64,000 bases of DNA. Origin: an uncultured Bacteroidota bacterium. Lineage in GTDB: Bacteria > Bacteroidota > Bacteroidia > Flavobacteriales > Flavobacteriaceae. Under the pieces are notes generated by a model. It searched no databases and had not been told where the DNA came from. It saw nothing but the letters and a program-made list of their open reading frames with translations. Positions within the stretch are counted from its first letter, which is position 1, and the number at the start of each line of letters is the position of its first letter. Position numbers and translations under genes: made by a program. The stretch is taken from positions 56,691-120,690 of the forward strand of contig CACMUP010000003.1 in assembly GCA_902616905.1 (NCBI GenBank). Direction: 5' to 3'. This document shows, piece by piece, positions 15,271-29,822 of the stretch.

Positions 15271-15310
15271 TTAAGAGGATGGATTTGAGATTCCCGAACT
15301 TAATAAAGAG
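15271..15310 (+). repeat. Integrase 3'-end stump, copy R-1
   Basis: TTAAGAGGAT then a 4-bp GGAT duplication then TTGAGATTCCCGAACTTAAT, closely matching the end of the recombinase gene at 25,911-25,947 (LRGLEIPELNEE). The match reaches left of the core repeat, so this is a stump of an integrase gene rather than an internal cassette boundary. Leftmost copy found. Confidence 0.6.
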
Positions 15311-15400
15311 TATACAAGCTGGTATAAAAAAGTGGGGAAAAATTGATATTTTCTTTTTCATAGCAATTGACCCCACAATAACCAAAATCAAATAAAAACA

Positions 15401-15479
15401 AAAAAAGGGAATGTGAAGTGTAGTTTGTTATCAATCAGACATTTTCCATTTCATTAAACAAACTGACATTCCCTTTTTT
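15401..15479. ncRNA. Long imperfect inverted repeat, possible structured RNA or terminator
   Basis: AAAAAAGGGAATGT (15,401-15,414) pairs perfectly with 15,466-15,479, and AGTTTGTT (15,422-15,429) with AACAAACT (15,457-15,464); a short bulge separates the two stems and the loop is about 27 nt. Run of six T follows in either orientation, so a bidirectional terminator is possible, but the length and two-tier stem are unusual. No gene directly abuts it. Confidence 0.5.
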
Positions 15480-15690
15480 GCCCTTGCAAATATCATTTTT
15501 AAATGATATTAAATCAGTTAATCAAAATACTATCTAACTATTGTTGTATAGACAAATGTTATTGTAAATAAAACAACAAACATTTTTCCTCTAATAAATC
15601 TATAAAGTACGATTAAGACTCTTAGGTTAATAAATTACATAAAAGTTAATTAACTGGAATTATATCACTAACTTTAAATAACTTAACAAT

Positions 15691-15768
15691 ATGAAAACTT
15701 GCAAATTATACTTTTTAATTACGCCATACATAAACTATAAGGGATGTGGTTGGCTGATTAAGCAATAA
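15691..15768 (+). CDS. Mini-ORF with YFLI.PYIN..GC.WL motif (25 aa)
   Basis: Encodes MKTCKLYFLITPYINYKGCG followed by WLIKQ. It shares the pattern YFLI(S/T)PYIN-x-x-GC-x-WL-x-K with the 42-residue frame at 9,444 on the same strand, while flanking DNA is different. Either a microprotein family or two fragments of one lost gene. Confidence 0.35.
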   Translation: MKTCKLYFLITPYINYKGCGWLIKQ

Positions 15769-15925
15769 ATAATTTACTTAGGAAAACAAAAATTTAATTT
15801 TTTTTTACTGAGGATTTGAATTGTATTTATAGTTGTACAAGTACCCCCTCAACAGGAGAGGGTTTGTATGGTATATAATAGGATCAATTAAAATTTAAAA
15901 TATCTGTTATTCTAACATCCTTTAT

Positions 15926-16576
15926 TTAAATCACCTCACCTCTGCTTTGAAAATACTCTGTTATGTCTTTAATATGTTTCTCCTGAAAATTTTTATGCAT
16001 TAGTAAAAGACCATCTGTTTTAGTACCAGTTAATCCAATCCAATGTGTTGCTCCTGTTGGTCTACTAACATCACATGTTCCCATAGCTACAGTTCTATTT
16101 TTAAATTCAGAATTACTTGTTTTCTTAACTATTACTTGGTGCGCTTTCGCATAACTAGTAAGGCCTTTTATAATTACGTCATAAACTAACCAATTATCTT
16201 GTTCGTCATTGCCTTGCTTCCAATCTAAAATTTTGCCACTGTAAGCTTTTCAAGAGTCATCAAGATGTGCCCTAAGACTTGACCAAAAGGCAGAGTTTTC
16301 ATAATCTTTTACGTTTCCATCTTCTCTTCCTCTATTTCCCTGTGGACACCACCATAATAGGCGTTGTGATCTTTCATCCGATCATTGCCACATTCTTTGT
16401 AATGCATAATCACTCCCTTTTTTAAACTTTGCATCTTTCATAAAACTTTCATTTAAATTGGAAACTGCATTACCATGTCCACCTTTAACACTAAGTTCAA
16501 CAGCAGTAAATGCATTTTGAGCGTTAGTTAAAAGTTAAGAAAGAAGAAAGATTGATGACAAAAAGAGTTTTTTCAT
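15926..16576 (-). pseudogene. Exported cassette protein gene with three in-frame stops
   Basis: The frame from ATG 16,576 to TAA 15,926 is exactly 217 codons with no net frameshift but contains three nonsense codons: TAA in the signal peptide (codon 14), TGA after ALQRMWQ and TGA after RAHLDDS. Ignoring these, it encodes a signal peptide (MKKLFLSSIFLLS-LLTNAQ) and a 190-residue body with FKKGSDYALQRMWQ, NSAFWSSLRAHLDD and ATHWIGLTGTKTDGLLLMHK, resembling the dimeric alpha-beta barrel-like exported proteins of neighbouring cassettes. The leader upstream (TTAACTATAAATCAATT) is the one shared by the live cassette genes. Confidence 0.7.
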
Positions 16577-16604
16577 TTCTAATTGATTTATAGTTAAAAG
16601 TTAC

Positions 16605-16655
16605 ATTATACAAATTAATCACTGAATATAATGAATAGGATATTTTGGTGATTTA
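16605..16655 (+). repeat. Cassette-boundary repeat R0
   Basis: ATTATACAAATTAATCACTG then AATATAATGAATAGGATATT and TTGGTGATTTAG; in the integrase frame this reads T-E-Y-N-E-stop-D-I-L-V-I-stop, a degenerate form of PELNEEDMPMI-stop. Lies directly upstream of the 15,926-16,576 pseudogene leader, the same position as in the other cassettes. Confidence 0.65.
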
Positions 16656-16817
16656 GAAATTAAATTACTTCAATTCCTATAGCTTGCTTTCCAGTCTCTT
16701 AATAAATACTAGATGATAGAAGAAAGGAAATATGATAAAAAAAAAAGTAAGCTTTAATATATTTAAAATTAAAAAACCTTAAGAAGATGAGGTAGCATAT
16801 TTATTTAGAATAAATTA

Positions 16818-16979
16818 CTATTTGTTAGACAAGTTTTTGAAATAAGGGTACTTTCTGTTAAAACCAACATCTTTAGGTTCTTGATCCCAAGTGACAGAAT
16901 ATTCGTAACCACAAATACATTTATTTACTTCGCAGCCACACGATAAAGAAAGTTGCTTTTTACGTTTGAAACTAATCAT
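16818..16979 (-). CDS. Small CxC protein, putative metal-binding (53 aa)
   Basis: MISFKRKKQLSLSCGCEVNK then CICGYEYSVTWDQEPKDVGF and a basic aromatic tail. The CGC...CIC cysteine pattern within 11 residues suggests a zinc or other metal knuckle. No signal peptide. Family not recognised; the intact 54-codon frame and strong cysteine pattern support a real gene. Confidence 0.5.
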   Translation of the reverse strand: MISFKRKKQLSLSCGCEVNKCICGYEYSVTWDQEPKDVGFNRKYPYFKNLSNK

Positions 16980-17187
16980 GGTTTCACCTTATTTTGTTTA
17001 ACTTTATAAATATACTGAATTAATACTTATTTTATAAAATTTTTCATAAGTTATTGTAATTATGGTATTTGATAAGATAATTATTTAATGTATATTATTA
17101 AAGTTTTTAGAAAAAGATTAAACAAAATGAAAACTTCAAAATTTTCACCTGCGATCTTAATTAATTTTTTAATACAGAATTCTGATT

Positions 17188-17592
17188 TTAAGCAAATCTA
17201 CCCAAAGACCAACCAATAGCTCCTCCCTGAATCGCACCCATAATTGCTGATATAAATATATCTGTTAGAGCAAATTGGATTGAAACAATGTTTGTTAAAG
17301 CCATAAATTGGAAGCCAAAAAAGGTAAAGGTTAGAGTTCCAAACCAAATTCCTGAAATTGATCCAGTTTTTAAATTTGTAATACCCATTTTATCAAAAGT
17401 TATAACCCATAAGGTTATCAATGCAGATGCACTAATTAATATAAATAAAGGGTCAGGCACTTCGTTTACAATACCTGGGAAAAGTTTACTTAATTCAGCT
17501 TGCTCAGGTTGATAGAATAATATTGTCGGTATTATGCTTGCAATTGACACTGATAGAAAGCAAGAAATAAACGCTATTAAGTATTTTTTCAT
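17188..17592 (-). CDS. Four-helix membrane protein of unknown function
   Basis: 134 residues: hydrophobic segments at about 4-26, 46-64, 78-98 and 106-130, the last Gly/Ala-rich (SAIMGAIQGGAIGWSLGRF). Polar link PEQAELSKLFPGIVNEVPD between the first two. Inner membrane, no enzymatic motif. Resembles small DUF1761-like membrane proteins only in topology, so I give no family. Confidence 0.6.
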   Translation of the reverse strand: MKKYLIAFISCFLSVSIASIIPTILFYQPEQAELSKLFPGIVNEVPDPLFILISASALITLWVITFDKMGITNLKTGSISGIWFGTLTFTFFGFQFMALTNIVSIQFALTDIFISAIMGAIQGGAIGWSLGRFA

Positions 17593-18322
17593 TTTTGTTT
17601 AAATTTTTTAATCCAATATCTAATATAAGAATTGTTTATCAAACTTTTTTCTCATTGATATATAAACTTTCATTATTAAAATTGATTCAAAAAGGTATTA
17701 AAATACGAGTATTGTAAATATTTTGCTATGTATTATTTTTAAGTTTGTTTTTATTACATTTTGAGGTGAAGAACACAAACATAGTGTTAGGGGAGAAGAG
17801 GCATGGTAGACAGATAGACAGTTACAAATAATTAGATTATCTACTTTAAATTTAAAATTATGCAATGGTTTTTTTAGATTTTTTAAAATAAAAAAGGGTG
17901 CTATTTCAACACCCTTACATAATCATAAACCAATTCATATAAGAATTACTTTATAAATATAGAAACAAATAACAATTGTATCAACAACAATTAGTTAAAA
18001 AAATATTAAAAAACCACTGAAACAATCAAGTGTTTTAATCTTATTTAATTGGCTTATGATTGCACTTAATATCAAAGTGCATTTTAAACTAATAAAAATT
18101 ATCTAAATATTTAATTTTGAAATGGTACCATAAATTTTCTTTTGAAGGACGTTATAACTACCAAAAAATATTTTTGAAAACAATACTCATTTGATACATT
18201 CGATATACAGTTTTAATAACTATGTATTGTGTCATTCAATCAATTTTGGATAAAAAAAGTGATATTGATGCAATATTACAGATTGAAACTAATTTATATC
18301 GGTTTGTATTAAGAATGTATTT
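17593..18322. other. Non-coding or decayed stretch left of integrase stump
   Basis: No open frame with coding character. Contains an orphan terminator-like hairpin (17,894) and a short palindrome GCACTTAATATCAAAGTGC near 18,062. The sequence leading into 18,323 (AAGAATGTATTTTACTCATC) may be further decayed integrase coding sequence (KAMGHSS region), but the resemblance is weak. Confidence 0.45.
17894..17916 (-). terminator. Orphan intrinsic terminator
   Basis: Stem AAGGGTG/CACCCTT with a 9-nt loop; read on the minus strand it is followed by TTTTTT. No intact minus-strand gene ends here, so it may mark the 3' end of a lost gene. Confidence 0.5.
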
Positions 18323-18401
18323 TACTCATCATCTATAAAAGTTTGTATTTACTAATTTAAGGGGTCTACAAAAACCTGAATTTAATGAAGAGGATATTTA
18401 G
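18323..18401 (+). pseudogene. Integrase C-terminal stump, copy R1
   Basis: From ACTCATCATCTATAAAAG onward the sequence parallels the recombinase gene end: SSIxVxLTNLRGL.xPE(F/L)NEED. After one frame slip it reads TNLRGLQKPEFNEEDI-stop with TAG at 18,399-18,401. It keeps about 80 nt of integrase homology, longer than the internal cassette repeats, and is followed 12 nt later by the end of the first cassette gene, exactly as the integrase at 25,962 is followed by its first cassette. Confidence 0.65.
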
Positions 18402-18413
18402 ATGATTTTAATA

Positions 18414-18821
18414 TTAGTAATAAATATAATTAGTATTGTTACCAATAATTGTTAATCCCTCTGTGCCACCAACAGCAAAGGTCAAGTGTTTTTGTGCTGC
18501 TCCAGATTCATCCTCATTCATCCTGTAATTAACATATTTCTGATGAGACTCAACTGAATCCCATTCTTCCAATAAAACGTGAATATTATTTTCCTTATTT
18601 ACAAATTGAACAACACTCTTACAACCCTTAAATTTTCTAGTAACTGGTAGAACATTTTCACTGTCCATAAATGCGACCAAATCAGACATCATTCCATCTT
18701 TTACCTTTGTTGTGATAATTACGATAGCATTATTATTATTATTTTGAATGGGATTCTTGACTGTTTGTTGGCATTTTGTGAAAATTAAAACAGATAATAA
18801 TAATAATAATCTTTTCATCAT
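18414..18821 (-). CDS. ABM-like (dimeric alpha-beta barrel) lipoprotein, cassette gene
   Basis: From ATG 18,821: MMKRLLLLLSVLIFTKCQQT, a lipoprotein signal with lipobox FTKC. The mature part, AIVIITTKVKDGMMSDLVAF, RKFKGCKSVVQFVNKENNIH, LLEEWDSVESHQKYVNYRM, matches the antibiotic biosynthesis monooxygenase-like fold (V...K.G....F.., G....V......L.E.W.S...H..Y). Envelope-anchored; reaction unknown. The frame is open 11 codons further upstream but without a signal sequence. Lies between repeats R1 and R2. A poly-Asn (N5) tract encoded by AAT repeats follows the lipobox. Confidence 0.75.
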   Translation of the reverse strand: MMKRLLLLLSVLIFTKCQQTVKNPIQNNNNNAIVIITTKVKDGMMSDLVAFMDSENVLPVTRKFKGCKSVVQFVNKENNIHVLLEEWDSVESHQKYVNYRMNEDESGAAQKHLTFAVGGTEGLTIIGNNTNYIYY

Positions 18822-18844
18822 GATTGAATTATAATAATATTCAA

Positions 18845-18897
18845 CAATATACAAATTACATCTTGAACTTAATGAAGAAGATATGCTGATGATATAA
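18845..18897 (+). repeat. Cassette-boundary repeat R2
   Basis: Reads CAATATACAAATTACATC, then CTTGAACTTAATGAAGAAGATATG, with the frame LELNEEDMLMI-stop ending at 18,897. The left part doubles as the promoter-like segment of the gene at 18,414 (minus strand TAATTTGTATATT); the right part abuts the terminator of the gene at 18,928. Confidence 0.8.
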
Positions 18898-18902
18898 AAA
18901 AA

Positions 18903-18919
18903 CCCTCCACTCGGGAGGG
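18903..18919 (-). terminator. Cassette gene terminator
   Basis: CCCTCC-ACTCG-GGAGGG stem-loop; on the minus strand it is followed by seven T, the T-tract running into repeat R2. Serves the SnoaL-like gene ending at 18,928. Confidence 0.85.
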
Positions 18920-18927
18920 CTAATATC

Positions 18928-19398
18928 CTATTGTGCTGCCATTAATTCTGCCTTTAATGTGGCTGAATCGAAATAAGCTCTAATTTCAATTACCTTACCA
19001 TTTTCCCATTTCTGATTGAAAACTCCTCTGTTGGTGTATCGTAATCCTGATGCATTTCCGGTCCCTATCCAGGTTAAATAAGTATTTGACCATATATTCC
19101 CATTTTTAAAATAGTTTGTGTGTGAGTATGAGTTCAAAAAACCAATATTATTAAAAATAGAATGATGAGATTTAAAACCTTCTATGTAAGAATTTTTATC
19201 CATCATGGTGTTGTTAACATATATTAAAGCTTTGTCCGAAATATTTTCATCCCAAACTTTAAAATTTTTACTCAAATAAGCATCATTACCTTCTATAACT
19301 TTCTTAGTTATCTCGTCATCTGTCTTTATTGTACCTATTGACTTTTGGGCATTTACCCCGAAAGAAATTGTAACAAATAGAATGATTATTTTTTTCAT
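18928..19398 (-). CDS. Exported SnoaL/NTF2-like protein, cassette gene
   Basis: 156 residues with a signal peptide (MKKIIILFVTISFGVNAQ). The body has the SnoaL-like order: helix NDAYLSKNFKVWDENIS, strand ALIYVNNTMMDKNSYIEGF, then HTNYFKNGNIWSNTYLTW, GVFNQKWENGKVIEIRAYFD and a C-terminal helix. Clearly paralogous to the cassette gene at 22,972 (shared HTNYFKNG, KWENGKV, AYFD/AYYD). Periplasmic or secreted; catalytic residues not evident. Leader TTAACCATAAATCAATAAAA immediately upstream is shared by other cassette genes. Confidence 0.82.
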   Translation of the reverse strand: MKKIIILFVTISFGVNAQKSIGTIKTDDEITKKVIEGNDAYLSKNFKVWDENISDKALIYVNNTMMDKNSYIEGFKSHHSIFNNIGFLNSYSHTNYFKNGNIWSNTYLTWIGTGNASGLRYTNRGVFNQKWENGKVIEIRAYFDSATLKAELMAAQ

Positions 19399-19426
19399 TT
19401 TTATTGATTTATGGTTAATAATATTA

Positions 19427-19477
19427 AATATACAAATAACTCCTTGAACTTAAAGAAGAGAATATATCTATGATTAA
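19427..19477 (+). repeat. Cassette-boundary repeat R3
   Basis: AAATATACAAATAACTCC then TTGAACTTAAAGAAGAGAAT and ATATCTATGATTA. The core is diverged and the integrase-frame stop is displaced, so it looks like an older boundary. Upstream of the gene at 18,928. Confidence 0.7.
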
Positions 19478-19584
19478 ATAACAATCTACTCTGGTATCTC
19501 CAATGCTTAAAAAAAACCTTTATTAAGATTCAGAATCTTAAAATGATGACTTGAAATTCACAAAGCTATAATTAGTTATTTTCA

Positions 19585-19632
19585 ATAAACATAAACATAA
19601 ACATAAACATAAACATAAACATAAACATAAAC
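19585..19632 (+). repeat. Hexanucleotide tandem repeat (ATAAAC)8
   Basis: Eight perfect ATAAAC units in a row, followed by one ATAAAT. Located in the gap between repeat R3 and the 3' end of the Kazal-like gene (minus strand). Hexamer units would not shift a reading frame, but here it lies outside genes; length variation by slippage is likely. Confidence 0.95.
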
Positions 19633-19683
19633 ATAAATATTTTGAATATGGATGTAAACTTAAAACTATAAAATACAGAATAG

Positions 19684-19869
19684 TTAATTATTAAAAATTA
19701 TTATTTCATCTTCATCATATCCTGCACAAGTTGCTAAACAAAAATTGTTGAATTGTTCACCTCCTGCAATAACAGGCATATATTCTTTTGTACAAGCACA
19801 AATTTTTTCTTCATAGGAACAAAATATGAAAAGTAATAATCCAATTAACAAACACCTACTATTATACAT
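19684..19869 (-). CDS. Divergent Kazal-like exported small protein
   Basis: 61 residues: a hydrophobic N-terminus (RCLLIGLLLFIFCSYEE, possible lipobox or signal peptide) and a cysteine-spaced body, ICACTKEYMPVIAGGEQFNN then FCLATCAGYDEDE. The order C.C....MPV..GG..F.N.C.A.CAG parallels Kazal-type inhibitor domains (C.....PVCG..G.TY.N.C.A.C.G), though the PVCG Cys is replaced by Ile. Start overlaps the upstream gene stop (TAATG), so translation is coupled. Confidence 0.55.
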   Translation of the reverse strand: MYNSRCLLIGLLLFIFCSYEEKICACTKEYMPVIAGGEQFNNFCLATCAGYDEDEIIIFNN

Positions 19870-20081
19870 TAGAACTGTGAATGTGATTTAATATAACCCT
19901 TCTGGATGCAGTACTTTGATTTTAAGAACTTTGTAAACTGTGGATGGTGTTCTTTTCCTATTGCAATTTTAAAAGGTATTAGATTGGGTTTACCAACTTC
20001 TAACCATACCCTTTTATAAGAACATTTAAAGGGATCAAACCCACAGGGGAATACTTCTGCAAGATCTGAATTTAATAGCAT
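19869..20081 (-). CDS. Cysteine-containing small protein (70 aa)
   Basis: No signal peptide. The body FPCGFDPFKCSYKRVWLEVG, KPNLIPFKIAIGKEHHPQF, and LKSKYCIQKGY aligns with the 66-residue protein at 28,778 (YPCKCSGKCNYSKAYEDAGK, IGKDFSP, NTNYCLNK). Shared pattern: (F/Y)PC, C.Y..., GKP..I, IGK...P and YC..K. A small two-member family in this window; function unknown. Overlaps both neighbours by TAATG-type junctions. Confidence 0.6.
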   Translation of the reverse strand: MLLNSDLAEVFPCGFDPFKCSYKRVWLEVGKPNLIPFKIAIGKEHHPQFTKFLKSKYCIQKGYIKSHSQF

Positions 20082-20170
20082 TAACCTTTCATTGCTTTTA
20101 GACCAAAATAGAGTATAGCAAACCCACCAACTATGATCAATACAGCAATACTTTTTAAGATATTTTTCAT
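20081..20170 (-). CDS. Single-helix membrane microprotein (29 aa)
   Basis: MKNILKSIAVLIIVGGFAIL followed by YFGLKAMKG: one membrane helix with a basic N-terminus. Its TAA overlaps the ATG of the 70-residue gene (TTAATG), and the 70-residue gene in turn overlaps the Kazal-like gene, giving a three-gene coupled set. Too short to assign a family. Confidence 0.5.
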   Translation of the reverse strand: MKNILKSIAVLIIVGGFAILYFGLKAMKG

Positions 20171-20210
20171 TTTGTTATAATTTATTTTTTTCTTCCTATA
20201 ACTTTTGCTT

Positions 20211-21431
20211 CTACAATCTTGTATTAATAATATTGTTAAAAATTGACCCGAAGGTATAACTTAATCCGAGAGAAATAGTGTTTTGAAAATTAGTTGCAAT
20301 TTGACGTTGTCTTAGTAATAAATCCTCAATAGAAACTTCACCTTTTGGTAAATTGATTTGATCTCTAATAAGTTGAAATCTGCCAGTTACTCTGAGTGCA
20401 AGTCCTTGTATAATTCTTAAATTAATATAATTATTAAAGGTTAATCTATTTTGATTTTGATTATTTAAAAATTGAGATGCAGATAAATAAGAATAAATGC
20501 CACCCCAGTTTTTTCGGTATCTTAAATTTAAAGTTAAAGAATGTACAAATAGTTTTTCATTTAAGTATCCGTAAATAGTTTCTTCTATATAATCATAATT
20601 ACTATAACCTACCTTGTAGGCAAAAGTTATTTCACGATTCAAAACCTCACGATATGGATAAATATTATATTCCAAGGCAGGTGAAAAGTTTAAAAAAGAT
20701 TTGAAATTATTAAATGTATCTTTCTGAAAACTACCAAAAATACCTGTAGAAAAATGGTTAGAAATACTTTTTACAACACTTCCAGAAAAATAGGTTCGAT
20801 CTCTTACACTATTATAGTTTTCTTCTTCACCCAAAAAAGTATTCACATTATTTTGAATCCCAAAATCAGAACGTACACGCCATAAGTCAGTAACTCGGTC
20901 AATTTCAAAATCAAGTCTGTATTCTTTTTCGTTGATACTTTTTTCATCTTGATAATCAAATGAACCTGAAATTTCAAAAACCCAGTTTTTCCACTTATCA
21001 AATGTTTTAGTGGAGGTGAGATTCTCAGTCATATTATAACTAACCTCAAAATTTTTTTGATATGTTGTGTTTTGGAGCATAATAGCTAGACCTAATAAAT
21101 AGGTATTTAAAAGCTTTTCTCTTCGTTCATTCGATGTAAGGCTAGGGTCGAGAAAAACTTCTACACTTTCCTCTCTATTATTTAATCTTTTCTTCCCATA
21201 AAAATTAAACGTATAGTCTATACCTCCAGTGCCACTACCTATCTCAAAAACAAAAACGTCAAGATCCGAAAGATTCTGGTCTCTTACATAGTCAATAAAT
21301 AAGGTTTTTTGTTGAATGTAACGTGCATCACAATTACATTTCAAAAAGGTTTTAATCTTATTCTCTTGAGAAAGAACGGATACTGAAAAAAAAATCAAAA
21401 AACCAAAACCTTTAATTGTGGAATTTTTCAT
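20211..21431 (-). CDS. Outer-membrane beta-barrel protein
   Basis: About 406 residues from ATG 21,431 (MKNSTIKGFGFLIFFSVSVL signal peptide ending LSQ). The N-terminal domain has a CNCDARYIQQ segment and VFEIGSGTGGIDYTFNFYG; from about residue 120 onward there are alternating amphipathic strands with aromatic ends (WVFEISGSFDYQDE, YRLDFEIDRVTDLWRVRSDF, HSLTLNLRYRKNWGG), ending ISLGLSYTFGSIFNN. This is a typical uncharacterised Bacteroidota outer-membrane barrel. An upstream start at 21,452 exists but adds no signal features. First gene of a run continuing into the microproteins. Confidence 0.7.
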   Translation of the reverse strand: MKNSTIKGFGFLIFFSVSVLSQENKIKTFLKCNCDARYIQQKTLFIDYVRDQNLSDLDVFVFEIGSGTGGIDYTFNFYGKKRLNNREESVEVFLDPSLTSNERREKLLNTYLLGLAIMLQNTTYQKNFEVSYNMTENLTSTKTFDKWKNWVFEISGSFDYQDEKSINEKEYRLDFEIDRVTDLWRVRSDFGIQNNVNTFLGEEENYNSVRDRTYFSGSVVKSISNHFSTGIFGSFQKDTFNNFKSFLNFSPALEYNIYPYREVLNREITFAYKVGYSNYDYIEETIYGYLNEKLFVHSLTLNLRYRKNWGGIYSYLSASQFLNNQNQNRLTFNNYINLRIIQGLALRVTGRFQLIRDQINLPKGEVSIEDLLLRQRQIATNFQNTISLGLSYTFGSIFNNIINTRL

Positions 21432-21482
21432 AATAATAAAGTTGTTTAGCAACTAGAAAATTAAATCGCTTTTGTTTACAAA

Positions 21483-21992
21483 TTATTTTTTAGTATAACC
21501 ACCAACACTGGTTCTATAATCAAACTCTATTAACTCACCTTCAGAATTTTTCATTGATTTGTCAAAACCTATATCAAGAAAAAATTGTTTTAATTCGCGT
21601 GTAACTGGGCCAAGTACAGTAACACCTTCAAATTTGTATCTAGCAAATACTTCCGGTAATCTATCTTTAAGGTCACCCTCTGTAATTCTTTTATCGTGGT
21701 GCATTAATCCTTTCCAATTTGTATATGATTCATACATTGTTACACGAGATCTGTCTTCATTAATAAAAAATCTCCAAGAGGTTGTTAAAGGCTCAGACTC
21801 AACAACCATTTTTGCCCAAGCTTCATTCCATTCTTCTAGGTCAACTTCAGTACCCTCGTTAATAGACCATTCGACTAAAACTATTAAATCTTCATTTTTA
21901 GCGTCACTAACAATGATGGGTTCATTTTTAGGTTGATTTTTTACACAAGAGAAAGTAATTAAGTAAAGAATTAATATATATATATATCTCAT
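21483..21992 (-). CDS. ABM-like exported lipoprotein, cassette gene
   Basis: 169 residues. Lipoprotein signal MRYIYILILYLITFSCVKNQ (lipobox TFSC). The mature part (LIVLVEWSINEGTEVDLEEW, AWAKMVVESEPLTTSWRFFI, SRVTMYESYTNWKGLMHHDK, FEGVTVLGPVTRELKQF) has the order of a dimeric alpha-beta barrel domain. Probably anchored on the periplasmic or outer surface. Promoter-like TAATTTGTATATT lies just upstream in repeat R4. Confidence 0.7.
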   Translation of the reverse strand: MRYIYILILYLITFSCVKNQPKNEPIIVSDAKNEDLIVLVEWSINEGTEVDLEEWNEAWAKMVVESEPLTTSWRFFINEDRSRVTMYESYTNWKGLMHHDKRITEGDLKDRLPEVFARYKFEGVTVLGPVTRELKQFFLDIGFDKSMKNSEGELIEFDYRTSVGGYTKK

Positions 21993-22017
21993 TTTAGTTG
22001 ATTATGATTATAATGAT

Positions 22018-22069
22018 AAATATACAAATTAGTCCCTGATACTACTGAAGAAGATATGCTGATGATATA
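22018..22069 (+). repeat. Cassette-boundary repeat R4
   Basis: AAATATACAAATTAGTCCCT then GATACTACTGAAGAAGATAT and GCTGATGATATA; integrase frame PDTTEEDMLMIY, where the ELN codons have changed to DTT and the stop is lost. Between the genes at 21,483 and 22,132. Confidence 0.78.
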
Positions 22070-22094
22070 CCCCCCTCTTGTAAAAAAAGGGGGG
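22070..22094. terminator. Hairpin adjoining repeat R4
   Basis: CCCCCC/GGGGGG stem with a 13-nt loop, directly abutting the repeat. Occupies the position where other cassettes carry a CCCTCC/GGAGGG terminator. Lacks a clear T-tract on the minus strand, so termination strength is uncertain. Confidence 0.6.
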
Positions 22095-22131
22095 TTGTTT
22101 TAATAATATTTTTTAAAATTACTTTATAATT

Positions 22132-22863
22132 TTAGTCTCTTGGGGAGCTTAATTCAGGCATAAATGTGTGATGTCTATTAAAGCCCCAATCATCTGCTAA
22201 TGATTCTCCATACTTATCATAATCTACGTCCCAAGCTCCGAATAATTCGTTATAAGCTGCTTTGATTTTCGGGATACTATTTTTTCTCCAGTTTTCTTCA
22301 TCCTCAAAGTTTTTAAATATCCAACGTATCATTACAACATTTTGTCTTGACCCTCCTGATATAAGATTTAAAACACTTCTATTATAAGGATGCCCAATTT
22401 TTTCGTACGCCTTTTTTATTCTCATTTGAAAGGTCCAAAAATCATCTTTTTTATCCTCTTTGTAACTTAATATAGCTATCCTTCTATGATTATTTCCTTC
22501 GTAATCACCTGTCCTGTAGCTGGCATCTTGATTAATATTCCATAAAGTTACCCTTCCTGATGTGTGAGGAACATTTTTAAACCAGTAATTGTTCCCCTTA
22601 GTGTTTTGATAATCTAATTCACCTAAATTTCTAACTACTCTTACTCTTGCATAATTTTGTGCATTTGGACCAGTTAAAATCTTAAAAGTGAAAAACTTTT
22701 CTTTTGCCCCTTTGCCATTAAACATTTGTGTTTTTTTTGCCACAGCCGCCTCAAATTCTGGAATGTCTTTATTCTCTACATCTAGGACTCTCATTTGTAG
22801 AATTTGCGAATTTACATTACTTAAAAATGTAAACAGAAATATTAATAGAATTAGTTTTTTCAT
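22132..22863 (-). CDS. Exported two-domain alpha-beta barrel-like protein, cassette gene
   Basis: 243 residues with a signal peptide (MKKLILLIFLFTFLSNVNSQ). Two similar halves of ferredoxin-like order, e.g. LQMRVLDVENKDIPEFEAAV and KFFTFKILTGPNAQNYARV in the first, RRIAILSYKEDKKDDFWTFQ and VVMIRWIFKNFEDEENWRK in the second, suggest an internal dimer of ABM-like domains. Similar design to the gene at 26,406. Secreted or periplasmic; activity unknown. Shared leader TTAACTATAAATCAATAG upstream. Confidence 0.72.
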   Translation of the reverse strand: MKKLILLIFLFTFLSNVNSQILQMRVLDVENKDIPEFEAAVAKKTQMFNGKGAKEKFFTFKILTGPNAQNYARVRVVRNLGELDYQNTKGNNYWFKNVPHTSGRVTLWNINQDASYRTGDYEGNNHRRIAILSYKEDKKDDFWTFQMRIKKAYEKIGHPYNRSVLNLISGGSRQNVVMIRWIFKNFEDEENWRKNSIPKIKAAYNELFGAWDVDYDKYGESLADDWGFNRHHTFMPELSSPRD

Positions 22864-22890
22864 TGCTATTGATTTATAGTTAATTAACTA

Positions 22891-22942
22891 AATATAAAAA
22901 ATATTCCTTGAATTTAATGAGGAGGATATGCCTATTATATAA
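22891..22942 (+). repeat. Cassette-boundary repeat R5
   Basis: AATATAAAAAATATTCCTTG then AATTTAATGAGGAGGATATG and CCTATTATATAA; integrase frame LEFNEEDMPII-stop. Beyond the stop, homology to R8 continues through the hairpin into the last codons of the adjacent gene (ending SK-stop in both), about 70 nt in all. Confidence 0.82.
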
Positions 22943-22946
22943 AAAA

Positions 22947-22963
22947 TTCTCCACTTGGGAGGG
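22947..22963 (-). terminator. Cassette gene terminator (weakened copy)
   Basis: TTCTCCACTTGGGAGGG, corresponding to CCCTCCACTTGGGAGGG at 26,381 with two C changed to T on the left arm, so the stem is shorter; T-tract on the minus strand retained. Serves the gene ending at 22,972. Confidence 0.65.
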
Positions 22964-22971
22964 TAAATAAT

Positions 22972-23466
22972 TTACTTTGACATTTCTGCCATTGCTGTAG
23001 CTTCTTTAATCTGTAAAGTAGGATCATAGTAGGCCTGAAATCTTACAACTTTTCCATTTTCCCATTTCAAATCTGTATGCACTCTAGCAGAGGTAGTTTC
23101 TCCAGTGAAGTTTCCTGTTGCAGTATTAGTAAACCAGTGATTTGTCCAGATTTGGCCATTTTTAAAATAGTTTGTGTGAACGTATTCATCAGATGTTGTG
23201 AGAGATTTAAACAGGATATGGTCTCTTTTAAGGCCTTCAATCATTGATTTTTTATCTACTACCACATTATTAAATAAAACTTCGCAATCATCAGAAAGTA
23301 ATTCTTCCCATAAACTAAAATTATTTTCAACATAGTTTTTTAAAAGGTTTATGGCATTATTTGTTAGTTTATCATCTTTTTTTACAACTGCTGTGCTTTC
23401 TTGTTGTTGGTTAGAACAAGAAAAGATCATAACTGACAAGAAAAGGATCGATAATATTTTTTTCAT
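22972..23466 (-). CDS. SnoaL/NTF2-like lipoprotein, cassette gene
   Basis: 164 residues. Lipoprotein signal MKKILSILFLSVMIFSCSNQ (lipobox IFSC), then LKNYVENNFSLWEELLSDDC, EVLFNNVVVDKKSMIEGL, VHTNYFKNGQIWTNHWFTN, DLKWENGKVVRFQAYYD: the SnoaL-like fold, paralogous to 18,928. Unlike that gene it is lipid-anchored. Upstream leader TTAACTATAAATCAAAG and the AATTTGTATATTG promoter-like element fit the cassette pattern. Confidence 0.82.
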   Translation of the reverse strand: MKKILSILFLSVMIFSCSNQQQESTAVVKKDDKLTNNAINLLKNYVENNFSLWEELLSDDCEVLFNNVVVDKKSMIEGLKRDHILFKSLTTSDEYVHTNYFKNGQIWTNHWFTNTATGNFTGETTSARVHTDLKWENGKVVRFQAYYDPTLQIKEATAMAEMSK

Positions 23467-23495
23467 TTTACTTTGATTTATAGTTAATAAGTAAC

Positions 23496-23547
23496 AATAT
23501 ACAAATAACTTCCATAAACTAAATTCGGAGGATATACTTATAATCTA
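23496..23547 (+). repeat. Cassette-boundary repeat R6 (degenerate)
   Basis: AATATACAAATAACTTCCAT then AAACTAAATTCGGAGGATAT and ACTTATAATCTAG. Core changes (GAACTTAATGAAG to AAACTAAATTCGG) make it the most diverged internal copy. Right-hand end of the left array. Confidence 0.6.
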
Positions 23548-23749
23548 GTTAGTATCAGTTATCAGAAATATAATAATTATTTAAAATTTCATTAAATATA
23601 AATTTAAAAGTATTGTATAACTCATTTGTAATTTCTTTTTTTCTTGGTAACCAGCCTATTAATAATTACCTCCATGTATTCGTTAATCTTCTGGAGTTAG
23701 TTCCCTTGTGACAAGACATTTTTTCTAATTTTGAATAAACCCCTAACAA

Positions 23750-24439
23750 ATGAAAAACCTTGTTGTGAAATATTTAATTGAATTCATTGTTATAATAACC
23801 GGTATTTCTCTATCATTTTATGTAGAGAAATTAAATGAGACTAATTATCAAGAGAACTTAAAAAATCAATCTTTAGGCCGAATTCTTAAAAATATTGAAG
23901 CTGATACAAAAGATTTTAAATTTAATTTAGAAGCAAATAAAAAGTCTATATTATCAACTGATTGGTTAGGAGAACGAAATGATGATCTTCAATCATACTC
24001 AAGAGATTCTATAGGATTTCATTTAAATAGATCCATATTTTTAAATACAATTCTTGTTGACAATCAAGAGGAATATCGTGGGTTACAAAATTCAGGGTTA
24101 ATTGAGTTAATTGATAATGAAAACCTCGTAACAAATTTGCAACAAAAATATGTGAGACACGAGTTTTTTAAAAAGATCGAGGATTTTATTTTGGAAAAAA
24201 TGTCACTTTTTGAGGATTTTTCATCTAAAAATCTCAGATATAATAGTTACCGAACTGACGAAATAGGGATATCTAATGATCGAGTTTTTATAGGAGAGGA
24301 AAATATTCCGTATAATATTATTGAGTCATTAAAAGATAAAAGATCATATCATAATTTTTATATTATTCAAATCAAAGAAAGGCTTGAAGCTGATAAAATA
24401 TTGGTAGAACAAATCAAAAAAGAAATAAATAGAAATTAA
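23750..24439 (+). CDS. DUF6090-like membrane-anchored protein
   Basis: 229 residues. N-terminal membrane anchor (VVKYLIEFIVIITGISLSFYV) followed by EKLNETNYQENLKNQSLGRI, the pattern of DUF6090 proteins in marine Flavobacteriia (EFI.I..GI.....D.W....), then a long charged helical domain ending LVEQIKKEINRN. No catalytic motif. Plus-strand gene separating the left array from the tRNA-like copy; it has no cassette leader. Confidence 0.65.
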   Translation: MKNLVVKYLIEFIVIITGISLSFYVEKLNETNYQENLKNQSLGRILKNIEADTKDFKFNLEANKKSILSTDWLGERNDDLQSYSRDSIGFHLNRSIFLNTILVDNQEEYRGLQNSGLIELIDNENLVTNLQQKYVRHEFFKKIEDFILEKMSLFEDFSSKNLRYNSYRTDEIGISNDRVFIGEENIPYNIIESLKDKRSYHNFYIIQIKERLEADKILVEQIKKEINRN

Positions 24440-24749
24440 AAACGATATTAGTATTTAAAAAAAGTGGTCCAGATTAAGTCCATTTAATTAATACTATCTT
24501 CTTCAAAGAAGAATGACAGTTGCTAATGTGCCATAATTAGACAGTAGCCTAATTTATAACTATATGTAAAATCACCCCAGAGTTGTTATATACCATAAAT
24601 TAGAAACCTAGTCTCAAATGAAATTCGACTTAAAAACAGAGTAAAATACGTGCCATAACCACGCTATTTTTTGTAATTTTAAGTGTAGATCGTTTATACA
24701 TTTGTTCGCTTTTTTAGGAGAATGCGGTTGGTTAATTTCAAAAAAAAAA

Positions 24750-24769
24750 AGGGACTCAAAAGAATCCCT
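24750..24769 (-). terminator. Terminator of the tRNA-like copy
   Basis: AGGGATTC-TTTT-GAGTCCCT read on the minus strand, followed by a run of T. One mismatch in the stem; parallel to 29,723-29,744. Confidence 0.75.
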
Positions 24770-24773
24770 AGAG

Positions 24774-24833
24774 GGTGGAAGATCGGTCTCGAACCGTTGA
24801 CCTCCTGAACTACAATCAGGCGCTCTAACCAAC
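24774..24833 (-). pseudogene. Truncated tRNA-His-like copy (GUA loop)
   Basis: Minus strand from GTTGGTTAGAGC through the anticodon stem CCTGA/TCAGG to the T-arm and CTTCCACC. The 5' acceptor and the first D-stem half are missing (upstream reads GGAGCAGATTT), so it cannot fold as a tRNA. The loop carries GTA in place of the His GTG of the full copy. Confidence 0.8.
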
Positions 24834-24920
24834 AAATCTGCTCCTAAATACCAATAAATAAAAGGCATATGAACTTTTTACGATTTAAACTAATTGTAAA
24901 ATGCCAAATACGTGCCAAAA

Positions 24921-25962
24921 ATGGAACTATCTTATCCCAAAGTAAAGAAACGTGCCGATGGTAATTTCTTTATTGAGTTTACACTAGCATCTAAAAGAAT
25001 GAGACTAGTCAATGGACAAAAAATAAAATTTAACCTCCAACCTAATTTATATCCTCCAAAGGAAAGAAAGTCTAAAGCAGAATTACTTGCTAAAGAGGTA
25101 TATAATTATCTGGTGAATAACGACTATACATTCAATCATGATACTCCAAAGAATGAATTAGAGCTATATGATTTACTTGTAAAAAATAAGCTTAATGAAC
25201 CTCTATCTGATAAATACAAAAAGGCTATTGAATCTATAGCTAGACTTTTTAGGGAACAGGTAATTCTTCATAAAACTATCCCCATTAGATTCACAAATAA
25301 TTATATTTCAGAATACATAAATCCAACGTTTTAATACAACTAGAAGCCATGTAAACGCCTTTTTAAGCTATTTGAAGCAGAATGATTTTCTAGTTGAAAT
25401 AAGCTCCCTAAAGCCACGAAAACAAGCTGAAACACTCCATAAACCAATAGAAGATGTTAAGTCATTATTAGAGGAAATAAGGCAGTATAATTTCAATCTA
25501 TTTTTATGTTGTAGTCTTACTTATGGGTGTTTGCTTCGTCCCCACAGAGAGATTAGACTTCTTAAGTGGAAAGACTTTAGTGACGATCTTAAATATGTTT
25601 CAATAGATGGAGGAAGAGTTAAATCAAAAAAGAATAGGGTAGTGCCAGTCCCTGAATTTATAAGAAAAAAATTATCACCAATAGGGAAGGAGTATAATAT
25701 ATTTTCTAATTCCACTATTGAACTTAACAAGGACTATTTTAAGACCCTTTGGAGTCGATTTAAGAAGCAATCTACACTTCTTAAAGATAATCAAACCATG
25801 TACTCTTTTAGACATTCTGGAGCAATAGATATCTTTAAAAGAACAGGTAGTATAACCAAGCTTCAGAAAGCTATGGGACACTCTTCTATAAATGTTAGTT
25901 TGACTAATTTAAGAGGATTAGAAATACCTGAACTTAATGAAGAAGATATGCCAATGATTTAG
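24921..25962 (+). pseudogene. Tyrosine recombinase, frameshifted and lacking the nucleophile
   Basis: Flavobacterial phage-type integrase of about 347 codons, starting MELSYPKVKKRADGNFFIEF. The N-terminal DNA-binding part runs to 25,334, where a T4 tract (25,329-25,332) has one base too many; in the +1 frame the protein continues F-NTTRSHVNAFLSYLKQND. The catalytic domain shows Arg I (YGCLLRPHREIRLLKW), the beta-hairpin Lys (KSKKNRVVPVP), RH in MYSFRHSGAI and the MGHSS histidine, but the tyrosine position reads SLTNLRGLE where active relatives have TYLRGLE (codon AAT, not TAT). Both lesions should abolish activity. The last codons PELNEEDMPMI-stop form repeat R7, and the first cassette gene overlaps the stop on the other strand. 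Confidence 0.85.
25927..25962 (+). repeat. Repeat R7, the native integrase 3' end
   Basis: CTGAACTTAATGAAGAAGAT followed by ATGCCAATGATTTAG, encoding PELNEEDMPMI-stop. This is the reference copy for the cassette repeats; similarity to internal copies begins near the CCTGAA and fades after GATATG. Confidence 0.9.
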
Positions 25963-26303
25963 TTTTTAATGTACCTCATTCCTTCAACTCCTTTAGTCAT
26001 TTGTACATTTACTTTTACTGGTTTATTATTTTTATTAATAAACTTAATTACTTCATCTGAAGCAACATATAATCTTAATTTTGCTTTTGGAGGTAAATCA
26101 ACCCCTTGAGTATATTTACCAGTTTGTTTTTTTTCTCCCTCTATTAATACTTTAAAATTTGATGTATTAGTTATTTCAGCTCTATAGTTTTTTGTGTTGT
26201 ATTCACCAAGAATAAAAGTTTCATTTGCAGGAATTGTTAGTCCAGATTTGAATGCAGAGCAGCTTACAAATAAAACTGCACACAAAAAAAATATTTTATC
26301 CAT
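25959..26303 (-). CDS. Small lipoprotein, cassette gene adjacent to integrase
   Basis: 114 residues; lipoprotein signal MDKIFFLCAVLFVSCSAFKS (lipobox FVSC). The mature part is beta-rich (ETFILGEYNTKNYRAEITN, FKVLIEGEKKQTGKYTQG, AKLRLYVASDEVIKFINK) and of unknown family. Its stop codon overlaps the integrase stop on the opposite strand, so the cassette begins exactly at the integrase terminus. No terminator hairpin at this junction, unlike the other units. Confidence 0.68.
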   Translation of the reverse strand: MDKIFFLCAVLFVSCSAFKSGLTIPANETFILGEYNTKNYRAEITNTSNFKVLIEGEKKQTGKYTQGVDLPPKAKLRLYVASDEVIKFINKNNKPVKVNVQMTKGVEGMRYIKN

Positions 26304-26332
26304 TCACAAATATATAATTATAACATATTATA

Positions 26333-26375
26333 AATACTCCCTGAACTTAATGAAGAGGATATGCCTATTATATAA
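26333..26375 (+). repeat. Cassette-boundary repeat R8
   Basis: AATACTCC then CTGAACTTAATGAAGAGGAT and ATGCCTATTATATAA; integrase frame PELNEEDMPII-stop. Best match to the native integrase end in the array. Confidence 0.88.
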
Positions 26376-26380
26376 AAAAA

Positions 26381-26397
26381 CCCTCCACTTGGGAGGG
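26381..26397 (-). terminator. Cassette gene terminator
   Basis: CCCTCC-ACTTG-GGAGGG with seven T following on the minus strand. Ends the transcript of the gene at 26,406 just before repeat R8. Same hairpin, one base different in the loop, as at 18,903. Confidence 0.87.
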
Positions 26398-26405
26398 TAA
26401 TAAAA

Positions 26406-27146
26406 TTATTTACTTTGAAATGCTTTATACATTATAACTCTTTGTTTTAAGTCTCTTAAGTTATTCATGTTTACACTTTCCTTATCTGGATCACTTTGAG
26501 CAATACCACCCATACCTGTTTTTATGAAATCTAAATAGTTATTATACCAATCTATTGTGGTGTGAGAATAATATGTGTCTGTTCCATAATTATCAAGGCG
26601 TCTATGCAAAGTCCATCCTTGTCTTGGAGAATTTGATGAAATGGATTTATTTAACTTTACTTCAGCTTGTTCATAAGACCCATATTTGTCATTTTTTAAC
26701 TTCATAAAATTTAAAACCATAATATTTGCTGGTAAATCAACACCTTTCTTACTTACGGATTTCAAATTATTCCATTTATGTCTGTATACAAGTTTTCTTA
26801 TGTTACTGGCATCATTTTGAAATCTTTCCCAGTCTTTTTCACTTGTATTAATTTCCTTTAAAGCGTTAAAATCATCATTTGAATTTTCCTTACTAATGTC
26901 ATAAATGAAAGTGACCATATGTGTAAAATCTTCATCAGGATTATGTATAACTCTCCATACTGTAAATTCTTCTATTATACCTTTATCTTTTCTAGCTTGA
27001 TTGTATGGAAGAAATTTTTCTTTGATTAATTCTTCATATGCTTCAACATCATCAGCTTTTATAAAATGCTGATCGTAAATAAAATTTGGATTTTGAGCAA
27101 AAATATTAAATGAAAGCATTAATGCTATAAAAAAATATTTTTTCAT
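26406..27146 (-). CDS. Exported two-domain alpha-beta barrel-like protein, cassette gene
   Basis: 246 residues with a signal peptide (MKKYFFIALMLSFNIFAQ). Halves FIYDQHFIKADDVEAYEELI...EEFTVWRVIHNPDEDFTHMV and IMVLNFMKLKNDKYGSYEQA...GWTLHRRLDNYGTDTYYSHT show tandem ferredoxin-like ABM-type domains, as in the gene at 22,132. Presumably periplasmic. Leader TTAACTATAAACCAAAAT and AATTTGTATATTTAT upstream fit the cassette pattern. Confidence 0.72.
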   Translation of the reverse strand: MKKYFFIALMLSFNIFAQNPNFIYDQHFIKADDVEAYEELIKEKFLPYNQARKDKGIIEEFTVWRVIHNPDEDFTHMVTFIYDISKENSNDDFNALKEINTSEKDWERFQNDASNIRKLVYRHKWNNLKSVSKKGVDLPANIMVLNFMKLKNDKYGSYEQAEVKLNKSISSNSPRQGWTLHRRLDNYGTDTYYSHTTIDWYNNYLDFIKTGMGGIAQSDPDKESVNMNNLRDLKQRVIMYKAFQSK

Positions 27147-27172
27147 TTATTTTGGTTTATAGTTAATATTAT

Positions 27173-27211
27173 AAATATACAAATTACTCCCTGAACTTAA
27201 TGAAGAAGAAC
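27173..27211 (+). repeat. Cassette-boundary repeat R9 (truncated)
   Basis: AAATATACAAATTACTCCCT then GAACTTAATGAAGAAGAACA; identical to the consensus up to GAAGAAG, then diverges, so this appears to be the right edge of the array where unrelated sequence was joined at the core. Confidence 0.82.
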
Positions 27212-29589: not shown

Positions 29590-29808
29590 GAATGAATTTC
29601 GACTAAAAAAGCGTGCCAAATGCGTGCCAAAATCGGTCTGTTTTTCGTATATTTAAGTGTAAATCGTTCTTAAACTTGTATTCGCTTTTTTGGAGAATGC
29701 AGTTGGTTAGTCCCAATAAAAAAAGGGATTCAACAGAATCCCTTAAGGGTGGAAGATCGGGCTCGAACCGACGACTTCCTGAACCACAATCAGGCGCTCT
29801 AACCAACT
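29590..29808. repeat. Right copy of tRNA-His flank direct repeat (putative attachment site)
   Basis: Counterpart of 24,611-24,833, including the terminator and the tRNA 3' portion. Also contains GCGTGCCAAATGCGTGCCAA (29,611-29,630), and a related ACGTGCCAAAAATGG occurs at the start of the integrase gene (24,909), so the element's end sequence may be shared. Confidence 0.72.
29723..29744 (-). terminator. tRNA-His terminator
   Basis: AAGGGATTC-TGTT-GAATCCCTT, a perfect 9-bp stem on the minus strand followed by TTTTTTT. Confidence 0.92.
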
Positions 29809-29822
29809 GAGCTACAACCACC
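29748..29822 (-). tRNA. tRNA-His (GTG)
   Basis: Anticodon stem CCTGA/TCAGG with loop TTGTGGT (anticodon GTG); D-arm AGCTC.GAGC, T-arm GTCGG-TTCGAGC-CCGAT, extra G at -1 and C at the discriminator position as expected for tRNA-His. The acceptor stem GTGGTTG/CTTCCAC has two adjacent T-T mismatches at pairs 5 and 6; the 3' strand would match GTGGAAG perfectly. The 3' end is shared with the truncated copy at 24,774. No CCA is encoded. Confidence 0.88.

Follow-up and report, generated by a model that had tools for sequence, protein, structure and literature searches.

A tyrosine integrase of tRNA-gene islands, in flavobacteria and their relatives, probably captures gene cassettes at the roughly 35-bp end of its own gene. 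In the window (the whole 64-kb stretch of DNA analysed here), the last ~35 bases of an integrase gene, referred to below as the core, are repeated on the same strand and up to 10 kb away: there are seven good copies, one half copy and one weak one. A first-pass annotation had pointed out that the integrase's last codons (PELNEEDMPMI-stop) recur in this manner, and this is borne out: a 20-mer search allowing up to 3 mismatches finds five matches in the 64 kb, and none over 100 dinucleotide shuffles. A 34-nt matrix, trained on the same eight window copies that it scores, places these on the plus strand at 36-49 bits (16622, 18376, 18863, 19444, 22036, 22908, 25928, and 26341); its next-best places are 23514 (10.6 bits) and 42503 (9.4 bits). 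The copy claimed at 23.51 kb, being this close to the noise at 9.4 bits, is therefore weak, and the one at 27.19 kb keeps its left half only; the other listed copies stand. An independent 26-nt matrix, derived from 74 other integrases (loci from the best 80 of 138 matches), recovers the integrase end and five of the seven other window copies at threshold 14 (core centres 18393, at 14.3 bits, 18880, 19461, 22925, and 26358), missing those centred at 16639 and 22053. The features are listed below, with the complete and weak core copies as located by the 34-nt matrix and with positions relative to the core numbered, here and throughout, from the first base of its GATATGCC.

15281..15314, plus strand: decayed integrase tail
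16622..16655, plus strand: core copy, 38.6 bits
17188..17592, minus strand: gene within the 1.75-kb unit between the cores at 16639 and 18393
18376..18409, plus strand: core copy; to its left, a longer decayed integrase tail reaching to about -42
18414..18854, minus strand: cassette gene, 146 aa from TTG
18863..18896, plus strand: core copy, 48.1 bits
18928..19398, minus strand: cassette gene, 156 aa; its protein belongs to a cluster of 9 cassette proteins, the longest of which matches SnoaL_2
19444..19477, plus strand: core copy, 36.2 bits
20211..21992, minus strand: unit with at least two genes (ORFs of 413 and 169 aa)
22036..22069, plus strand: core copy, 42.0 bits
22132..22863, minus strand: cassette gene, 243 aa, exported-looking
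22908..22941, plus strand: core copy, 44.2 bits
22972..23466, minus strand: cassette gene, 164 aa, DUF4440-like (E 0.002, below the cut-off)
23514..23547, plus strand: weak core-like copy, 10.6 bits
24598..24833, minus strand: decayed tRNA-His copy with 3' flank, just upstream of the integrase; 82% match to the intact tRNA-His
24912..25962, plus strand: tyrosine integrase pseudogene, its second ORF matching PF00589 at 42.7 bits
25928..25961, plus strand: core formed by the last codons of the integrase gene itself, whose stop is at 25960-25962
25959..26303, minus strand: first cassette gene after the integrase, 114 aa, exported-looking
26341..26374, plus strand: core copy, 49.1 bits
26374..26398, minus strand: terminator-like hairpin, read from the sequence, adjoining the core at the end of the 26406-27146 gene
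26406..27146, minus strand: second cassette gene, 246 aa, exported-looking, without a Pfam match
27191..27211, plus strand: left half of a core copy, where the window array ends on the right
29747..29821, minus strand: intact tRNA-His at the island end, downstream of the integrase

The units between copies are as described before (about 0.4 to 2.6 kb, with exported-protein genes on the opposite strand and terminators adjacent to repeats), and the integrase stumps placed at 15.27 and 18.32 kb correspond to partial integrase ends at 15.28 and 18.35-18.41 kb. What the first-pass annotation overlooked is that the window's integrase is, as read from its sequence, dead: it is frameshifted once, into ORFs in different frames (24912-25334 and 25372-25962), and the codon for its catalytic nucleophile Tyr has become Asn (SLTYLRG to SLTNLRG). 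The window array is therefore either a relic or dependent on another integrase copy.

Relatives of the integrase were limited to the best 80 of 138 matches; the resulting 79 loci (L002-L080) are therefore its closest relatives and no random sample. Within this set, 69 of the 79 integrases are full length with the catalytic Tyr; that of L074 is frame-broken near its end. A recognised integrase core is present at 74 loci, 35 of which have further copies; of these 80 non-integrase copies, the integrase strand carries 61 downstream and 10 upstream of the gene, and the opposite strand carries 9 (again from the best 80 of 138 matches). A downstream copy is present at 28 of the 60 closest-relative loci with at least 1 kb of downstream sequence and absent at the other 32. 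The 26-nt matrix, at threshold 14, gives no matches in one letter shuffle of each locus from L002 to L080. The stop codon of these integrases falls at +15 in 61 of 74 cases (at +18 to +48 in the remaining 13), and it is retained at +15 in 62 of 78 non-integrase copies from the same set.

The left half of the cassette cores resembles the end of the integrase at its own locus: mean mismatches are 3.06 (87 copies at 36 loci, from the best 80 of 138 matches), compared to 5.12 when loci are permuted 500 times (sd 0.28, minimum 4.22). Core sequence thus tracks the local integrase lineage, as expected if that enzyme recognises the core. In lineages other than the window's genus, the repeat continues as coding sequence of the integrase (SLTYLRGLEIAELKEED), and its differences are codon-like; over 31 cassette left arms they number 67, 40, and 167 at codon positions 1, 2, and 3, and a simple crossover at the core would fail to explain these. 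L005, L078, and L079 (no core) and L045 and L073 (no anchored integrase) were set aside in the codon-position, own-end-match, copy-extent, and unit counts.

A total of 165 units have a median length of 891 bp and usually hold one gene each; units over 5 or 6 kb, and L172 (from the same genome as L017), are outside the unit counts. The longest ORF faces the integrase in 133 of 156 units, and by a crude rule 108 of 137 unit ORFs of at least 100 aa look exported, against 117 of 340 chromosomal controls. The core adjoins the upstream side of most cassette genes, at a median of 84 nt from the start codon. This position, and a promoter-like flank common in the window's genus, would suit a regulatory element or transposon end that the units share and that has no relation to the integrase; given that the repeat continues in other lineages as integrase coding sequence, with its codon-like differences, such an element is hardly credible, and a dispersed repeat or transposon end in particular was set aside.

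In the window's genus (genome sizes 1.0-2.2 Mb, many incomplete), a search found the core in 32 of 38 genomes, with 211 matches, summed over the table, compared to 2 for a reversed control pattern. Runs of up to 12 cores occur in the genus arrays, in a scan over loci other than L182-L189 and without a shuffled control of its own. An integrase or stub was detected at E 1e-6 in 14 of the 38 genomes, and most of the genus arrays examined have no integrase, absences that are soft because many of the 38 genomes are incomplete.

The integrase is, judging from the sequences around it, one that belongs to islands at tRNA genes, a point absent from the first-pass annotation. At 26 of 61 testable loci among the best 80 of 138 matches, the region preceding the integrase is repeated downstream, and 23 of these 26 repeats are tRNA sequence by reading of the alignments, giving 23 of 61 islands with tRNA direct repeats at both ends; ARAGORN finds a tRNA within 120 nt upstream of the integrase at 19 of the 79 closest-relative loci. 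In the window itself, tRNA is the sole Rfam match between 12000 and 31000. The tRNA site and the core bear no resemblance by eye, and one enzyme would have to serve both. This lack of likeness, together with the excess of genomes with cores over those with an integrase or stub, could mean that unit movement is the work of some other recombinase, be it XerC/D of the host or a further integrase, with the integrase 3' end simply a favoured target. With core sequence tracking the local integrase lineage, and with the integrase absences as soft as they are, we consider this quite unlikely.

If the integrase's own end is the landing site, related genomes should differ by whole units there, and they do. 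L013 reads integrase-A-x-B (B running off the contig) where L014 reads integrase-B-A, two cassettes in swapped order; L028, L030, and L074 read integrase|C, integrase|X|C, and integrase|X|Y|C; L167 reads A|X|B and L224 A|B. The integrases of L063 and L064 are 95% alike up to the core end, beyond which come different cassettes. Near-identical units are found between differing neighbours, and one cassette of the window's own genome has a 96.7% copy in another genome, with other neighbours. Out of 43 rows of possible insertions, seven read as cassette differences at a core, five of them with clear cores on both sides (L013/L014 twice, L017/L167, L028/L074, and L028/L030); for L071/L054 and L048/L133 a second core is either degenerate or could not be located, and in the other rows the core is absent at the junction or the difference involves integrase remnants or truncations. 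Pairs in these neighbour comparisons and in the breakpoint comparisons below share loci and are not independent (L162 is the contig of L007, L163 that of L048, and L192 and L172 are in that of L017).

The first-pass annotation had made two proposals: that insertion takes place at the 3' end of the integrase gene, and that a copy of the last codons comes in with each unit. The gain, loss, and swapping of whole units at the core in related genomes supports the first proposal. As to the second, every informative base from +8 to +59 in L028 versus L030 goes with the cassette (DMP-MV-stop versus DMP-NIL-stop), so there the last codons arrive with it; the frequent retention of the stop at +15 agrees. 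The annotation would have abandoned the idea had related genomes never gained or lost units at the core, or had the repeat been unrelated to the integrase end; units do differ at the core, and what is repeated is coding sequence of the integrase.

Successive tRNA islands might instead have inserted and decayed in series, leaving integrase ends as scars between cargo genes. In the window, the integrase stumps and a pair of tRNA-His copies do represent remnants of islands in tandem, and a few copies elsewhere have longer integrase remnants (L020 to -299, L016 to -139, and L051 to -92). The left edges of copies are, however, non-random: among the 50 extended copies, 18 have theirs at -50 to -59, and in the remaining 39 of the 89 copies it is near -18 (loci from the best 80 of 138 matches). 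The same unit also recurs with differing neighbours on its left, the edge again lying at the core, and the other tRNA-His piece in the window is confined to the integrase's own unit, none lying between other units. Serial accretion thus seems very doubtful.

Borders of shared cassettes were located in pairs of at least 92% with different neighbours. The right borders, in 12 pairs, lie at -22 to -18 in five and at -29, -8, +6, and +35 in one each, three giving no position. The left borders, in 18 pairs, lie at +4 to +18 in nine, at -15 in one, at -25 to -34 in three, and at -60 in one (with the same neighbour), and are indel-shifted to 59-60 in four. Breakpoints thus do not fall at one fixed place, and the core is often inherited with neither neighbour. 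Each insertion may copy the local core, a target duplication that would fit cores shared with neither neighbour; against this, variant cores travel with the cassette (L148/L196 and L009 with AGCTTA; L197 with ACTTACTGAGGAGGATACG).

The variable breakpoints also suit a further possibility, that units are exchanged by ordinary homologous recombination between cores and similar promoter and terminator flanks, with no integrase acting now. The indel between L167 and L192 breaks at about +35, in the terminator and outside the core, and so suits homologous recombination, which this one cassette loss looks like (L224 has an alternative junction, at -18); cores and left arms appear homogenised as well. 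However, core copies in the genus share little beyond about 35 bases and the promoter-like flank, the latter judged by eye, and units lie between unrelated neighbours in different genomes. It would also be left unexplained why the repeat is the integrase gene end, why it stops at the stop codon, and why most copies in the best 80 of 138 matches lie downstream. As the general explanation, homologous recombination is unlikely.

Capture by the integrase is the reading preferred here: since units differ at copies of its last codons, it likely collects genes at its own gene's end, although its role as catalyst of their movement is something we infer from the sequences. The landing site would be the last codons and stop of the gene, roughly 35 bp, with which a free cassette circle bearing one core would recombine, perhaps by way of weak inverted arms on either side of the core centre. 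With every insertion the enzyme would gain new final codons from the cassette, and excision would be insertion reversed. Gene conversion may homogenise the cores, and the exact exchange point would then be hidden. Arrays without an integrase would be served in trans by a related one, or be static. The integrase itself may have an arm-binding domain: its structure model has an N-terminal sheet and helix, and the best structural matches are lambda Int, then Tn1549 Int. A phage or plasmid origin was rejected (the best phage and plasmid matches, among the matches listed, are 22-24% identical), and a viral-contig scan gave 76 pattern matches, none confirmed as a relative of the integrase.

More broadly, and with somewhat less assurance, we lean toward a Bacteroidota platform that evolved independently of integrons: a lambda-type tRNA-island integrase using its own gene end as landing site, with cassettes that renew its last codons and an integrase gene that is itself mobile as a cassette (L009, L010). 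If so, the capture of cassettes has more than one origin, in this case within another branch of the recombinases; the trade of single exported-protein genes among these small genomes would be explained; and the question of keeping a recombination site inside an enzyme's own coding end would become testable. For annotation, an integrase's own 3' end could serve as a probe for its cassettes. Searches of an open-access literature library brought up no comparable system.

Integrons are the textbook natural gene-capture platform, and their attI site lies beside the integrase gene, outside its coding end, whereas the core here spans the last codons and stop. The likeness is in an integrase followed by a tandem array of small one-site units, with cores mostly direct and in runs of up to 12; the differences include cassette genes that mostly face the integrase, and islands at tRNA genes. 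For integrons, the corresponding features are a tyrosine recombinase, tandem small and mostly one-gene cassettes each with a site, shuffling, and integrase-less arrays (described in PMC8618304 and PMC9024848); their integrases are placed among the simple recombinases in PMC8138268, and a broad survey names one complete integron in Bacteroidetes proper, that of Salinibacter ruber M1 (PMC9024848). An integron integrase is ruled out here: the IntI family model (TIGR02249, cut-off 265) gives at best 28.3 bits over six full-length integrases and 29.5 over five C-terminal parts, and the predicted N-terminal fold is arm-binding-like. The attC sites of integrons fold into single-strand hairpins; such folding was set aside here after 12 folds (six sites, both strands), with z from -2.41 to +1.02 and one of the 12 below -2.

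In dif modules, neighbouring sites alternate in orientation and have an XerC/D recognition sequence; here 71 of the 80 non-integrase copies (best 80 of 138 matches) are on the integrase strand. The plasmid dif (pdif) modules of Acinetobacter are described as single genes or gene sets between short recombination sites, mobile as modules (PMC13141974). Units here are likewise genes bounded by short sites and moving as modules; however, pdif has Xer sites on plasmids, with C and D modules, while here there are chromosomal contigs and mostly direct sites matching the local integrase end.

The archaeal suicidal integrases (SSV1, pTN3, and pT26-2) are described as having the attachment site inside the integrase gene, which integration splits into inactive parts (PMC8371274). 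Here the site is the last codons, and most of the closest relatives, as counted above, remain full length with the catalytic Tyr. Genomic islands at tRNA genes with a tyrosine integrase, of the Islander type, are described in PMC4383910, and the 23 loci (of 61 testable, best 80 of 138 matches) with an integrase beside a tRNA copy and a tRNA direct repeat at the far end have the same architecture; where they differ is in the cargo, a large part of which is a cassette array attached to the opposite end of the integrase.

The end of the integrase gene does recur through the window as first proposed: a 20-mer of its 3′ end has five matches with at most 3 mismatches (none in 100 shuffles), and a 34-nt matrix, derived from the same window copies that it scores, marks eight strong places including the integrase gene, all on the + strand, with the next at 10.6 and 9.4 bits. 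Two copies listed in the first-pass annotation fall short of this, that at 23.51 kb being weak and that at 27.19 kb a half copy. A matrix that does not depend on the window, being derived from 74 other integrases, recovers 5 of the 7 copies outside the gene (one barely over threshold) and misses those at 16639 and 22053. One cassette unit (a segment between two copies, or cores) also has a brief stretch of tandem ATAAAC hexamers (19585-19640).

The window integrase is itself a pseudogene: it is split into two ORFs in differing frames, and the catalytic Tyr codon of its SLTYLRG motif has become Asn. Its genome (an assembly 68% complete) has no second match of the integrase family at E 0.001. 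One scan of named genomes gave 138 confirmed matches, and the 79 best loci among them served as relatives (numbered with an L below), by record title mostly Flavobacteriaceae, Polaribacter or other Bacteroidetes. The titles of L030 and L060 read Rhodobacteraceae and Nitrospirae, while their integrases lie within the mainly flavobacterial set; these records are perhaps mislabelled or misbinned. The Tyr is kept in 74 of the 79; L076 has Asn there, as in the window, and four are truncated or frame-broken at that place.

The query matched through its last residue in 71 of the 79 loci, and the integrase's core could be anchored in 74. The consensus around the G at position 0 is CTGAACTTAAAGAAGAG followed by GATATGCCTATGGTTTAG; positions -17 to +17 are conserved across the integrase loci. 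Weak inverted arms, CTGAAC and GTTTAG, are centred on position 0 (the symmetry read by eye). Extra copies occur in 35 of the 74 loci, 61 downstream and 10 upstream on the integrase strand and 9 on the opposite strand; letter shuffles of every locus gave zero core matches. Of the 60 loci whose sequence continues downstream for 1 kb or more, 28 have a downstream copy and 32 have none. Cassette cores differ from their own locus's integrase by 3.06 mismatches, against 5.12 when permuted (500 permutations, minimum 4.22). Integrase coding sequence extends left of the core in 50 of 89 copies, most commonly to -50 to -59 (18 of the 50); in the window's genus the left-side match ends mostly at -18. In several cassettes (L046 801; L071 10785 and 14325; L061 16240) a similar alternative left arm, around ACAATTTACAATAATTTT, replaces the integrase tail. 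Opposite-strand cores in L058 (17052), L061 (13694-16240) and L071 (14325-15454), some of them in arrays, lie several kb downstream and face the integrase-bearing part.

Within the window's genus the core pattern is found in 32 of 38 genomes, including all 7 of best quality (211 hits summed, versus 2 for a reversed control pattern), and an integrase or stub in 14 of the 38. In the stretches fetched from this genus, 248 cores delimit 162 units (median 882 bp) in runs of up to 12. The integrase was found in 23 of 397 family genomes (E 1e-10) and 12 of 395 class genomes (E 1e-40).

Related loci differ by whole cassettes. L013 reads integrase-A-x-B (B extending past the contig end) and L014 integrase-B-A, and the edges of both shared cassettes coincide with cores. 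L167 reads A-X-B where L017/L192 and L224 read A-B, X being 825 bp with a single exported-looking ORF of 229 aa; a cassette from the window's own genome has a 96.7% match in another genome, with different neighbours. The integrases of L063 and L064 are 95% identical to the core's end, after which the cassettes differ. L028, L030 and L074 read integrase-C, integrase-X-C and integrase-X-Y-C; between the first two, every informative position from +8 to +59 follows C, so that a different cassette gives the integrase different final codons. In L197 (G431:C2), one cassette start occurs twice in the array, at 5043 and 7737 in reverse-strand coordinates (98.8%), with a variant core common to both.

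Breakpoints were sought in pairs sharing a cassette at 92% identity or more, with different neighbours. Right-hand breakpoints most likely lie at -22 to -18 in 5 of 12 pairs, left-hand ones at +4 to +18 in 9 of 18, the remainder scattering or giving no position; by these positions the cassette proper tends to begin in the right part of a core and to stop where the following core starts on its left. The core is often inherited with neither neighbour; some variant cores move along with the cassette on their left (L148/L196, L009) or on their right (L197). Exchange inside the core, with homogenisation between cores, is the mechanism proposed here; local copying is a possible alternative. Under core exchange with homogenisation, part of the cassette losses would still proceed through homologous recombination; the L167/L192 breakpoint, at about +35, is outside the core. 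Left-arm differences by codon position number 67/40/167 (0.24/0.15/0.61), compared with 0.27/0.08/0.64 between integrases, and this codon-like pattern suggests that left arms are often renewed from integrase genes.

The 165 units have a median length of 891 bp, and 156 contain an ORF of at least 55 aa (median coverage 75% of the unit). The longest ORF is oriented toward the integrase in 133 of the 156; median distances are 84 nt between its start and the core on the right, and 47 nt between its end and the core on the left. A crude rule for signal peptides makes 118 of the 156 look exported; at 100 aa or more, 108 of 137 cassette ORFs do, versus 117 of 340 chromosomal ones. The products form 101 clusters, 76 of them singletons. 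Seven cassette proteins were scanned against Pfam: four matched above cut-off, to SnoaL_2, DUF6090, Beta-lactamase-family serine hydrolase and alpha/beta hydrolase, a fifth matched GWxTD below it, and two had no match. In L009 (9200-10574) and L010 (2317-3726) the integrase gene is itself flanked by two cores, placed as if one cassette of the array.

Most of the integrases measure 340-360 aa and carry PF00589. Six full-length examples score at most 28.3 bits against an integron-integrase model (cut-off 265), exceeded by a XerA-type model (up to 49.5, cut-off 220). A structure predicted from 12 sequences (mean pLDDT 80, pTM 0.54) has a sheet and helix at the N-terminus, like arm-binding domains, and paired motifs upstream of the gene are candidate arm sites. 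In the Foldseek ranking lambda Int is the top match, Tn1549 Int the fourth and an integron integrase the eighth, every TM-score being below 0.6.

ARAGORN places a tRNA within 120 nt upstream of the integrase in 19 of 79 loci, and the pre-integrase region is directly repeated downstream in 26 of 61, as tRNA sequence in 23 of these (read from alignments). The window has two such regions, at 82% identity:

24598-24833, degraded copy of tRNA-His and of its 3′ flank, upstream of the integrase
29747-29821, intact tRNA-His, downstream of the integrase

These are probably the remains of a tandem island insertion at one tRNA. Upstream tRNAs together with downstream tRNA repeats make it likely that the island enters tRNA genes via its 5′ side, and cassettes at the 3′ end; the same integrase may serve both sites.

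No description of cassettes delimited by an integrase's own 3′ end was found in the open-access literature, bioRxiv preprints being outside this scope, so one may exist elsewhere; the parts consulted of PMC8138268, PMC8618304, PMC9024848, PMC8371274 and PMC13141974 do not describe them. Among known systems, the dif module and the suicidal integrase were rejected on the features tested. The likeness to integrons is one of structure and natural variation, while three of their defining features that were tested are absent here. A separate kind of system, capturing cassettes by the mechanism proposed, appears to us the probable reading.
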